From assembly GCF_900142715.1 (NCBI RefSeq), contig NZ_FRBX01000005.1, positions 62,001-126,000 of the forward strand: a DNA stretch of 64,000 nucleotides, read 5' to 3'. This document shows, piece after piece, positions 3,166-48,457 of the stretch (position 1 is the stretch's first letter; each line of letters begins with the position of its first letter). Source of the stretch: Flavobacterium pectinovorum (lineage in GTDB: Bacteria; Bacteroidota; Bacteroidia; Flavobacteriales; Flavobacteriaceae). A model generated the notes under the pieces. That model made no database searches, was not told the origin of the DNA, and saw only the letters and a list, made by a program, of their open reading frames with translations. A program made the translations under genes and the position numbers.

Positions 3166-3203
3166 GGAGCGTCAGGAAGTTTTTTCCTGACGCTCTTTTG
3201 TTT
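3166..3203 (+). terminator. Rho-independent terminator after tig
   Basis: Perfect stem GAGCGTCAGGA (3167-3177) / TCCTGACGCTC (3185-3195), a 7-nt loop, then a T-rich tail. Confidence 0.9.
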
Positions 3204-3230
3204 TAATTTATTTTTTGATTACTTTTCAGG

Positions 3231-3371
3231 AGCTAATCCAGCTATCCGTTACAAGTTTTTTCATGCCTCCCTTTTTTTGTAAGGTAAAAAAAGAGCTTCC
3301 GCTGGTCGCTTTTTTCTACCAACAAAAAATAGTTGTCATTTCAAAAAGCTTTTCACTGCTATCTGGGCTAG
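3231..3371. repeat. Long divergent copy of the CTATCCG-type structured element
   Basis: Conserved blocks CTATCCGTTACAAG (3242-3255) and TTTTCACTGCTAT (about 3350-3362) match the ends of the three 88-bp copies elsewhere in the window, but the interior is longer and has other internal repeats. The closing stem CCAG (3238-3241) / CTGG (3363-3366) lies exactly where the other copies have GGG/CCC. An outer CTA (3233-3235) / TAG (3369-3371) pairing is also possible. It occupies the tig-clpP gap; an open frame of 64 codons here is not a gene. Confidence 0.6.
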
Positions 3372-3383
3372 AAATAAGACATA

Positions 3384-7301: not shown

Positions 7302-7712
7302 ATGATACAAGTTCAAAATAAAATAAATGCCTCAATAGAAAAAGTTTGGGATCTGTGGACATTGCCAGAACATATTATGAATTGGAATAATGCTTCTGCA
7401 GACTGGCATACACCATATGTAGAAAATGATTTGAAAGCAGGCGGAAAATTCAAATTTACAATGGCTCTTAAAGATGGAAGCGATGGTTTTGATTTTGAAG
7501 GCATATATACTAAAATCGAAAAATTTTCATGGATAGAATATCAGCTTTTGGATAACAGAACGGCAAATGTTCGTTTTGAAAATAGTGGTGATCATGTAAA
7601 ACTTACCGAAACATTTGAGCCAACAACAAAAGATTCAGCAGATATGGAAGAACAATTTTGTACTGCAATTATTCAAAATTTTAAAAAGTACGTTGAAAAT
7701 TTTAAAGAGTAA
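7302..7712 (+). CDS. SRPBCC family protein (AHSA1-like), copy 1
   Basis: 136 residues. The N-terminus INASIEKVWDLWTLPEHIMNW is the first strand and helices of the START/Bet v1-like fold, and the C-terminal QNFKKYVE is the long closing helix: the activator-of-Hsp90 homologue 1-like (AHSA1) subfamily. It begins 15 nt after the frameshifted VOC gene and is about half identical to the next gene (7743), so the two look like a tandem duplication. Members bind hydrophobic ligands or act as stress proteins; the ligand here cannot be inferred. Confidence 0.88.
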   Translation: MIQVQNKINASIEKVWDLWTLPEHIMNWNNASADWHTPYVENDLKAGGKFKFTMALKDGSDGFDFEGIYTKIEKFSWIEYQLLDNRTANVRFENSGDHVKLTETFEPTTKDSADMEEQFCTAIIQNFKKYVENFKE

Positions 7713-7742: not shown

Positions 7743-8147
7743 ATGATAACAGTAAAAAGTACAATAAATGCATCAATAGACAAAGTTTGGGAATTATGGA
7801 CATTACCTGAACACATTACAAAATGGAGTTTCGCCTCGCCGGATTGGCATACACCTTATGCAGAAAATGATTTGAAAGAGGGCGGAAAATTTAAATCGAC
7901 GATGGCCGCAAAAGATGGCAGTATGAGTTTTGATTTTGAAGGCGAATATACTTTGGTAGAAAAAAATAAAACCATTGAATATGTTATGGCTGACGGAAGA
8001 AAGGTTGAAATTAGTTTTGCAGCAACTTCAAATGGAGTAGAAGTAACGGAAAGTTTTGATCCTGAAACACAAAACCCCGAAGAAATGCAACGCGGCGGCT
8101 GGCAGGCAATTTTGGACAACTTTAAAAGTTATGTCGAAGTAAATTAA
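7743..8147 (+). CDS. SRPBCC family protein (AHSA1-like), copy 2
   Basis: 134 residues, closely related to the preceding gene (shared INASI.KVW.LWTLPEHI, DWHTPY.ENDLK.GGKFK and FDFEG.YT segments). Same Bet v1-like fold, no signal peptide. The 30-nt gap supports a shared transcript. It is followed by a palindromic intergenic repeat (8148-8217) that may end or trim that transcript. Confidence 0.88.
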   Translation: MITVKSTINASIDKVWELWTLPEHITKWSFASPDWHTPYAENDLKEGGKFKSTMAAKDGSMSFDFEGEYTLVEKNKTIEYVMADGRKVEISFAATSNGVEVTESFDPETQNPEEMQRGGWQAILDNFKSYVEVN

Positions 8148-11202: not shown

Positions 11203-11290
11203 GGGCATGTCCCTCCGGGTCGGGCTATCCGTTTCAATCTTTTTGTCCGCCGCGGCGGACAAAAAGGATTTCCACTTCTATCCCTCATGC
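11203..11290. repeat. 88-bp structured element, variant centre
   Basis: The first 29 and last 22 nt match the copies at 44130 and 48286, but the 37-nt centre is unrelated: it contains a loopless 28-bp perfect palindrome (11239-11266, core GTCCGCCGCGGCGGAC). Closing stem GCATG (11205-11209) / CATGC (11286-11290) replaces GCGTG/CACGC of the other copies. Inner stem GGG (11222-11224) / CCC (11282-11284). Confidence 0.75.
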
Positions 11291-11357
11291 AATTTAGTGG
11301 AATTAGCGTTTTTTAATTGCATTTTAGCAACAAATCAATTCGTGAAAATTCGTGAAA

Positions 11358-12974: not shown

Positions 12975-13103
12975 TCGTTGTATCAAAAATACTGTTTTTT
13001 TTGTAATAAAAACATTCTATTTTTTACTAAAAATGAATTTTAAAAATTAAAATTCTGCGCTAGAGAAGCAATCTAAAATCTAAAATCAACAATCTAAAAT
13101 ATA

Positions 13104-13898
13104 ATGACATATCAAGGCGTACTTACAAAAATGCAAACAGAAATCGGAAATCCAATTCAGTATTATTTGGTTTTTGAAGATAGCTTTCTCAGTATGAATC
13201 AATTATTAGATAAAGAAATTGAAATTAATTTTGCAGGTTTTCAATGTTTGAATTGCTGTAAAAAGAAAAAAATATTCAGACAAGGTTTTTGTTATGATTG
13301 TTTTTACTCAAGCCCTGCTGTAGGAGATTGGATTATGAGACCGGAATTGAGTACGGCGCATTTAGGAATCGCAGACCGTGATTTAGAATACGAACAAAAA
13401 GTACAATTGCAGCCTCATGTTGTGTATTTGGCTGTGGCAAGCGAAATAAAAGTGGGCGTAACCCGCAAAACACAAGTACCAACCAGATGGATTGATCAGG
13501 GAGCCAGCCAGGCAATTGCCGTAGTTGAGGTTCCTAACAGATATTTGGCCGGAATTACCGAAGTCGCTTTAAAAAGTCATTATACAGATAAAACCAATTG
13601 GAGAAAAATGCTTCAAAATCCAACTGCGGTTTTTGATTTGATTGCCGAAAAAGTAAAAATTGAAGAATTGATTCCCGCTGAAGCACGAGAATATTTTTAC
13701 GCTCAAAAGAATGATTTATTCGAATTAAATTATCCCGTTTTAAATTATCCTGCAAAAGTCGCAAGCTTAAATTTAGACAAAACACCTTCTTTTCAAGGAA
13801 AACTTATTGGGATAAAAGGGCAATATTTAATTTTTGAAGACGGTACTGTTTTTAACATCCGTGGTTCCGAAGGATACGTCGTGACAATCGACGTGTAG
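13104..13898 (+). CDS. DUF2797 domain protein
   Basis: 264 residues. An N-terminal beta-rich segment (GVLTKMQTEIGNPIQYYL) is followed by a zinc-ribbon-like set CLNCCKKKKIFRQGFCYDC at about residues 49-67. Next comes the signature DRDLEYEQKVQLQPHVVYLAVASEIKVGVTRKTQVPTRWIDQGASQAI, which resembles a GIY-YIG-like nuclease core (GVTR...PTRWIDQGA) in DUF2797 proteins. No experimental function is known to me. Single gene divergent from the GH3 gene. Confidence 0.85.
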   Translation: MTYQGVLTKMQTEIGNPIQYYLVFEDSFLSMNQLLDKEIEINFAGFQCLNCCKKKKIFRQGFCYDCFYSSPAVGDWIMRPELSTAHLGIADRDLEYEQKVQLQPHVVYLAVASEIKVGVTRKTQVPTRWIDQGASQAIAVVEVPNRYLAGITEVALKSHYTDKTNWRKMLQNPTAVFDLIAEKVKIEELIPAEAREYFYAQKNDLFELNYPVLNYPAKVASLNLDKTPSFQGKLIGIKGQYLIFEDGTVFNIRGSEGYVVTIDV

Positions 13899-33866: not shown

Positions 33867-33975
33867 GATCTTGATGTTTTTTATTTATACAAAGGTAATT
33901 CAGAGTAGGATAAAAGTCTTTTTTATATCTTCGCTACTTATAGCACAATAAAGACATTTTGTTCTGGAAATTTTA

Positions 33976-34059
33976 AATTCCAAATTCCAAAATCTATAAT
34001 CCAAAATCTGGAATCTAAAATCTGGAATCTAAAATCTACAATCTAAAATCTACAATCTA
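33976..34059. repeat. 7-bp tandem repeat (ATCTAAA/ATCTACA/ATCTGGA)
   Basis: About eleven successive 7-nt units in phase, ending 7 nt before the ATG of the AraC-type gene. Same unit family as 36841-36908. Confidence 0.7.
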
Positions 34060-36660: not shown

Positions 36661-36830
36661 CAAGAGAAGTCCCAGAGGGACAGAATATTTATAGGAATTA
36701 TTGAAATACATCACCAAAGCTCCAGCGGAGCGATATATTTTATTTAGCACTAATATTTCGCTCCGCTGGAGCTTTGGTATTGGATTGTATATTTAGCTAT
36801 AAATATGATGCTCCGAAGGAGCTTTAGCGA
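36661..36830. repeat. Cluster of GTCCC/GGGAC and GCTCC/GGAGC palindromes
   Basis: Three small palindromes in a row: GTCCCAGAGGGAC (36669-36681); a 20-bp perfect inverted repeat 36714-36733 / 36758-36777 (arms contain CTCCAGCGGAG); and GCTCCGAAGGAGC (36810-36822). Each is near TATTTATAG-like text. They look like related dispersed elements. The whole 36583-36840 gap has no coding potential. Confidence 0.65.
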
Positions 36831-36840
36831 TGTTGCGTAA

Positions 36841-36908
36841 AAATCTAAAATCTAAAATCTACAATCTACAATCTACAATCTACAATCTACAATCTACAAT
36901 CTACAATC
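36841..36908. repeat. 7-bp tandem repeat (ATCTACA)n
   Basis: Two or three ATCTAAA units followed by about seven ATCTACA units. It abuts the 3' end of the RamB-like gene. No spacers, so not a CRISPR. Confidence 0.8.
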
Positions 36909-43867: not shown

Positions 43868-44125
43868 TAACCGCAAAGTTCGCAAAGGATTACGCAGAGA
43901 ACGCGAAGTTTTTGTTTTTAAGATAAAAAAGTTCGCAAAGGATTTCTCACGCAGATTTTGCAGATCTGGCGGATTTAGTTTTTTGAAAATAAGTAGTTTG
44001 AATTGCCTCCAGCTTTAGCTGGAGGAATAATGTTGAATAGTCAGGGCTTTAGCCAAATACTCGGTTTTGGTTAAAGCCAACCTGGAGCTTCATTTTTTTT
44101 TGAAATGAATTTTCTTTTTTTTACG
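43868..44125. repeat. Mosaic of dispersed intergenic repeats
   Basis: From left: GCAAAGTTCGCAAAGGATT text twice (43868-43885 and about 43930-43945); ACGCAGATTTTGCAGAT text (about 43950-43966), which recurs near 48218; palindrome CCTCCAGC-TTTA-GCTGGAGG (44006-44025); GGCTTTAGCC (44045-44054) / GGTTAAAGCC (44069-44078). The 88-bp element follows at 44130. No coding potential in 43819-44258. Confidence 0.65.
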
Positions 44126-44129
44126 ATTT

Positions 44130-44217
44130 GCGTGAGGGATAGAAGTGGAAAGCCCACAGCCTGACGAAGGAAGTGCGAGGACTTGCAGCGGATAGCCCGA
44201 CCCGGAGGGACACGCCC
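44130..44217. repeat. 88-bp structured element, standard form, copy A
   Basis: Read on the minus strand. Closing stem GCGTG (44130-44134) / CACGC (44211-44215); small hairpin CCC-GGA-GGG (44201-44209); inner stem GGG (44136-44138) / CCC (44196-44198) flanking the conserved CTATCCG and CTAT blocks. Differs from the copy at 48286 at only four positions. Confidence 0.8.
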
Positions 44218-44225
44218 AAAATAAA

Positions 44226-48091: not shown

Positions 48092-48285
48092 GACTTTAAT
48101 TTTTAAATTAATGTATAATACAAAGTTGAGATTTTATAACGCCTTAATTCTTATAGAATTACAATGGGTTTTTATAGGATTGTGGAATGGGAATTTTGAA
48201 AGGAAAATTTATTTCTCACGCAGATTTAGCAGATTAGGCAGATTTAATTTGATTTTTTAAAACGAAAAATTGGTTGTTACTGTTT

Positions 48286-48373
48286 GCGTGAGGGATAGCA
48301 GCGGAAAGCCCACAGCCTGACGAAGGAAGTGCGAGGACTTGTAGCGAATAGCCCGACCCGGAGGGACACGCCC
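48286..48373. repeat. 88-bp structured element, standard form, copy B
   Basis: Same length and orientation as the copy at 44130, four substitutions. Closing stem GCGTG (48286-48290) / CACGC (48367-48371). Preceded by ACGCAGATTTAGCAGAT text (about 48218-48234), as is copy A. An open frame crossing it on the minus strand (48257-48442) is not a gene. The remainder of 48092-48457 shows no other feature. Confidence 0.8.
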
Positions 48374-48457
48374 AAAATATTTGAGTGCTATTTGTTTTTG
48401 TAACCAAGCTAATGATGATGTCGTCAAAAGTAGATCAATCATTAATTAATAGTAAAA

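Follow-up and report, generated by a model that had tools for sequence, protein, structure and literature searches.

A long form of the dispersed, folded Flavo-1 element between tig and clpP in Flavobacterium pectinovorum

The element between tig and clpP in Flavobacterium pectinovorum belongs to an already catalogued family, Flavo-1 RNA (RF01705), of which it is a long-form copy. The explanation that we favour, at somewhat better than even confidence, is that Flavo-1 is a dispersed, non-coding and non-autonomous element, here in its long form, and that its minus strand folds into a long bulged hairpin. New here are the recognition of the long form as a discrete subfamily, the rule for its G.A loops, the strand assignment and the site-by-site comparison of presence and absence.

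Results

Family membership of the tig-clpP element

We analysed a stretch of 64,000 nucleotides (the window; contig NZ_FRBX01000005.1, positions 62,001 to 126,000). An Rfam search of the window matched Flavo-1 to positions 3231-3373 on the minus strand, between tig and clpP (53.1 bits, E 1.2e-8 for the window), and to a short-form copy with GGGCGTG/CACGC-type ends at 11214-11295, also on the minus strand (65.1 bits). Both matches lie above the family's gathering cut-off of 42 bits, show the outer helix and internal loops of the Flavo-1 consensus on the same strand, and come, like the family, from Bacteroidota. Two diverged short-form copies on the plus strand, 93% identical to each other, score below the cut-off: 44118-44223 (32.2 bits, as C11:106125-106206) and 48274-48379 (34.3 bits, as C11:110281-110362). 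A model trained on long copies (R1) gives 148.5 bits at 3230-3370, the window copy being part of its training set.

The original prediction had described the element as a longer relative of the short copies, and both do fall in RF01705. It missed that the family had been described before, that the long form is discrete and genus-wide, and that the fold spans the whole element, with near-invariant G.A mismatches. The length of the tig-clpP copy is no oddity; it is canonical for the long form, a discrete class. Rfam's model covers 76 positions and leaves the long interior as an unshown stretch of 82 nt; beyond this match, the long form has a conserved apical hairpin, paired GNA/GNA loops and alternative termini.

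Fold and covariation

The letters on which the prediction was built are in place, with CCAG at 3238-3241, CTATCCGTTACAA at 3242-3254, TTTTCACTGCTAT at 3350-3362 and CTGG at 3363-3366, as is the T-run/A-run hairpin that it placed in the interior (~3283-3320). It had taken CCAG/CTGG as a compensated change from GGG/CCC. The letters are right, but the GGG/CCC copies (11214-11295, 44118-44223 and 48274-48379) end in GGGCGTG...CACGC, so that the comparison contrasts two terminal types and not sister copies. The covariation nevertheless stands within the long form alone, without these copies. The prediction also proposed that other long copies be sought, and many were found, with the conserved apical hairpin inside.

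On the minus strand, the 3' side of outer helix 1 (3231-3233) pairs with 3367-3369; 99% of the alignment cells are paired, with double changes. It is followed by a bulge at 3234-3237, whose plus-strand sequence in the alignments is TAAT or TATTT; in the fold of the 11205-11295 copy, a small hairpin replaces it. Helix 2 is formed by CCAG (3' side, 3238-3241) and CTGG (5' side, 3363-3366). Across 35 long copies these segments read CCAG/CTGG in 22, CCTG/CAGG in 6, CCCG/CGGG in 2, CCGG/CCGG in 2, CCTG/CGGG with one G.U in 2, and CCAG/CTGT with one break in 1. The prediction was to stand or fall with the complementarity of these positions in other long copies, and 34 of the 35 are complementary. 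The third pair is unbroken and appears in all four Watson-Crick types (AU 23, UA 6, CG 2, GC 2, with UG in 2).

Further in, two 3x3 internal loops have GNA facing GNA when read on the Rfam strand, and their middle position is free. In the first, 3357-3359 faces 3245-3247, with G.A in 33 and A.G in all 35 copies; in the second, 3352-3354 faces 3250-3252, with both mismatches in 35 of 35. A 1x1 A.G mismatch is invariant in the same copies. The apical hairpin (3283-3320, minus strand) carries a bulged base and a 2x2 GA/AA loop (34 of 35), is conserved and marks the long form. RNA folding yields the same structure as the consensus.

The long alignment has 39 pairs, of which 24 changed on both sides, and 94.2% of its cells are standard pairs. 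Double-changed cells number 202; shuffling leaves 61.5 ± 7.0, and sliding the partner along gives 34-69. Of the two controls the second carries more weight, because shuffles ignore relatedness. At the tig-clpP site alone, in twelve species, 92.7% of the cells are paired and 65 are double-changed (22.6 ± 3.6 shuffled, at most 21 slid), a covariation that could partly stem from repeated insertion at that site. The structural constraint that had been proposed for the stem is thus upheld with far more long copies than the prediction had, and the alignments point to a folded shape that is strongly conserved across the whole element and not in the inner stem alone.

Paired changes could also arise with no selection if the hairpin itself templates mutations (quasi-palindrome correction). 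Adjacent double changes that occur together in close relatives (ATTTG/CAAAT vs ATCCG/CGGAT, L061/L080) would fit such a process. Such correction would, however, wipe out features that 33-35 of 35 copies retain (particular mismatches, the bulge, the apical loop), and we regard this explanation as improbable.

The strand that folds

Our data suggest that the element probably folds on the Rfam (minus) strand. The consensus energy is -24.7 on the Rfam strand and -15.3 on the opposite strand. For pairs predicted from both strands, G.U pairs number 30 on the Rfam strand and 8 on the other (p 5e-4), and for a strand-neutral set chosen without wobble they number 46 and 25 (p 0.017), copies and pairs being counted as independent in this test. 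The wobble pairs therefore favour the Rfam strand as the likely folding one. In addition, the G.A mismatches in its internal loops are C.T mismatches on the opposite strand. G.A motifs of this sort occur in RNA and DNA alike and therefore cannot tell which molecule folds; a literature search on them returned nothing usable.

Since 2010 Flavo-1 has been regarded as a probable RNA, and Rfam types it as RNA. Read as a transcribed non-coding RNA, either a small RNA or a UTR element, the family would have the long form as its larger version. The strand-specific fold, the tolerance of G.U pairs, the G.A loops on the Rfam strand and the agreement of RNA folding with the consensus all speak for this, as does the grading of the discovery paper, which judged the family probably RNA (PMC2864571). 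Yet a search for Bacteroidetes-type promoters running into the element gave no excess on either strand (a weak test), the orientation of copies to genes is not fixed, and site occupancy differs between species. In F. psychrophilum, the matches lie sense and antisense in transcribed regions, with many outside them (PMC9723704). We consider a transcribed RNA possible, at about one chance in five.

Two discrete forms

The family occurs in two size classes, a long form of ~142 nt and a short form of ~80 nt. In the 1.4 Mb of sequence examined, the separation of the left and right cores is bimodal, at ~40 and ~100 nt, with very few values between. When the tig-clpP region was used as a DNA query, a roughly 150-nt form turned up at many other sites in relatives, and forty such loci were collected and read alongside the orthologous tig-clpP regions. 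Flavo-1 matches occur in 58 of 61 Flavobacterium genomes. The long-form model R1, built from the 35 long copies, matches 52 of the 61 and, in an even draw across the phylum, 8 of 139 genera, Flavobacterium included; it also picks up some short copies, so that these counts are not purely long-form. The long form is thus a discrete, genus-wide subfamily. In F. pectinovorum itself, 49 matches exceed the cut-off and 64 have E values below 0.001.

Copies are intergenic, their orientation to genes is not fixed, and few of them lie between divergent genes (10 of about 75). Such placement would suit a bidirectional transcription terminator or an insulator between genes, and A and T runs flank the long apical hairpin, which could pass as a GC-rich stem followed by a T-run. 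In the short form, however, the stem has its T-run ahead of it and its A-run behind it on both strands, which is the wrong order, and tig is already followed by a terminator-like hairpin of its own. A terminator or insulator is the explanation that we find hardest to credit.

In the 1.4 Mb examined, we saw no autonomous copy with a gene between its halves. Wide core separations had been candidates for autonomous elements, and four of 16 that were opened proved to be chance matches to the left core. We also considered whether a small ORF (ATGAAAACG...) runs along the short copies and rejected it, since by eye single-base changes in interior length break the frame.

Presence and absence at orthologous sites

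The joined flanks of six short copies of F. pectinovorum were searched in eight relatives. At the L012 copy, five relatives run straight through the junction and three carry the element at the same position: the site reads GATTTTAAGA then CCCAAAAC if empty, and GATTTTAAGA then AGCTAATCC...GGGCTAAAAA if filled. No target duplication is visible at this site, the one clean empty one, where the flanks have diverged. At L001, L003 and L029 the element is likewise missing in some relatives, with less clean junctions. The cleanest empty site is thus that of a short copy and not of a long one.

Between tig and clpP, the long copy is present in 13 compared species and missing in many, and where present it keeps the same position and orientation. 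A separate terminator-like hairpin follows tig upstream of the element (3167-3199, plus strand) and is conserved in relatives whether or not they carry the element. The element lies downstream of this hairpin and upstream of clpP in some species only; clpP therefore probably does not rely on it for regulation. Insertion is inferred from site occupancy; loss of an ancestral copy gives the same pattern, at the cost of many independent losses.

Termini and wider distribution

By eye, three types of end surround one core. The first reads TTTAGGAGC...GGGCTA and has a weak tail, frequently with TTTTCATAAGA in it; the second, GGGCGTG...CTCACGC; and the third, AGGAGCAGAA...TTTTTATAAGA. In the fold of the GGGCGTG type, a small side hairpin takes the place of the bulge of the first type. 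Among the matches listed, the apical hairpin of the long form occurs with a GGGCGTG-type end in Bacteroidales and unclassified Bacteroidetes records, while records from Chitinophaga, Lentimicrobium and Profundicola have it with ends of other types; several of these non-Flavobacterium records are bins from metagenomes and may be mislabelled.

At the long copies L134, L137, L139, L144, L149 and L150, the automatic ORF call places the stop of the upstream ORF 0 nt from the element, and by eye some of them seem to take the TAG at its left end as their stop. A small palindrome similar to CCCGATAGCTATCGGGA, possibly another repeat that inserted there, lies in or beside copies L140, L017 and L072.

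Discussion

Known mobile systems resemble Flavo-1 in part. REP/REPIN sequences linked to RAYT proteins likewise form many intergenic, palindromic, non-autonomous copies without clear target duplication. Unlike these, Flavo-1 is a single imperfect hairpin of 80-145 nt, as compared with REPs of 20-40 nt, and we found no cognate RAYT transposase gene flanked by the repeat. MITEs of DDE transposons are also short, non-coding, imperfectly palindromic and dispersed, but Flavo-1 differs from them in its strand-asymmetric conserved mismatches, and no target duplication was visible at the L012 site with its diverged flanks.

A REP/REPIN-like or IS200/IS605-like hairpin, moved as single-stranded DNA by a Y1 (HUH) transposase, would account for the strand-specific hairpin with its conserved mismatches and bulge. 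The lack of visible target duplication agrees with this, and 41 of the 61 genomes contain Y1 genes. Against it, the 20 genomes with no Y1_Tnp match include copy-rich ones with at least 64 copies (values at 64 mean at least 64), and their comparison with the other genomes is not significant (p 0.11). The RAYT-like gene of F. pectinovorum is flanked by an unrelated CCTGCAAGG repeat, and five closed genomes, with the origin assumed or scanned, show no replichore orientation bias. The copy-rich genomes without Y1_Tnp and the other repeat at the RAYT-like gene do not support Y1/RAYT as the obvious mobiliser, and movement by such an enzyme seems unlikely, with perhaps one chance in eight. Neither the Y1 survey nor the search of 1.4 Mb for copies with a gene inside yielded a mobiliser of Flavo-1.

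We return to a dispersed element with a conserved fold, for which the following mechanism is the most likely. The element would spread both inside a genome and from one genome to another, and its folded single strand, either as RNA or as exposed single-stranded DNA, would be recognised by a protein of the host or one acting in trans. This protein may read the two GNA/GNA loops and also, in long copies, the apical hairpin. In the open literature searched, we found no description of Flavo-1 as a repeat or mobile element; the papers found to name it are the discovery paper (PMC2864571) and the F. psychrophilum transcriptome (PMC9723704). More tentatively, Flavo-1 might be less an RNA gene than a class of mobile elements across Bacteroidota that are recognised by their structure, of which a single folded strand is read. 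The rule would then be two GNA/GNA loops two base pairs apart, together with the apical GA/AA hairpin in the long form, and the reader would be an enzyme other than a known Y1 transposase.

The two size classes, the alternative termini, the near-invariant G.A loops and the assigned strand give Flavo-1 a sharper definition, and its occupancy of a site is seen to vary between species. An orphan motif is thereby turned into a testable question, namely what reads the fold, on RNA or on single-stranded DNA.

Other repeats in the genome

The RAYT-like Y1 gene lies at L033:1420-2028 (C5 ~134 kb; Y1_Tnp E 2.6e-4) with CCTGCAAGGTTTTCAAAACCTTGTAGG palindromes on both sides, which form a separate REP-like family, distinct from Flavo-1. 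Intergenic tandem arrays of the AATCTAAAATCTACAATC type, in a 14-base register, occur in the window at 33975-34057, 36840-36908 and 13070-13115, and an imperfect palindrome with arms of 55 nt and a spacing of 12 nt lies at 36685-36806. Two adjoining 240-nt stretches of the window, 7302-7541 and 7743-7982, are 75% identical and begin at the ORFs 7302-7712 and 7743-8147; this pair is likely a gene duplication.
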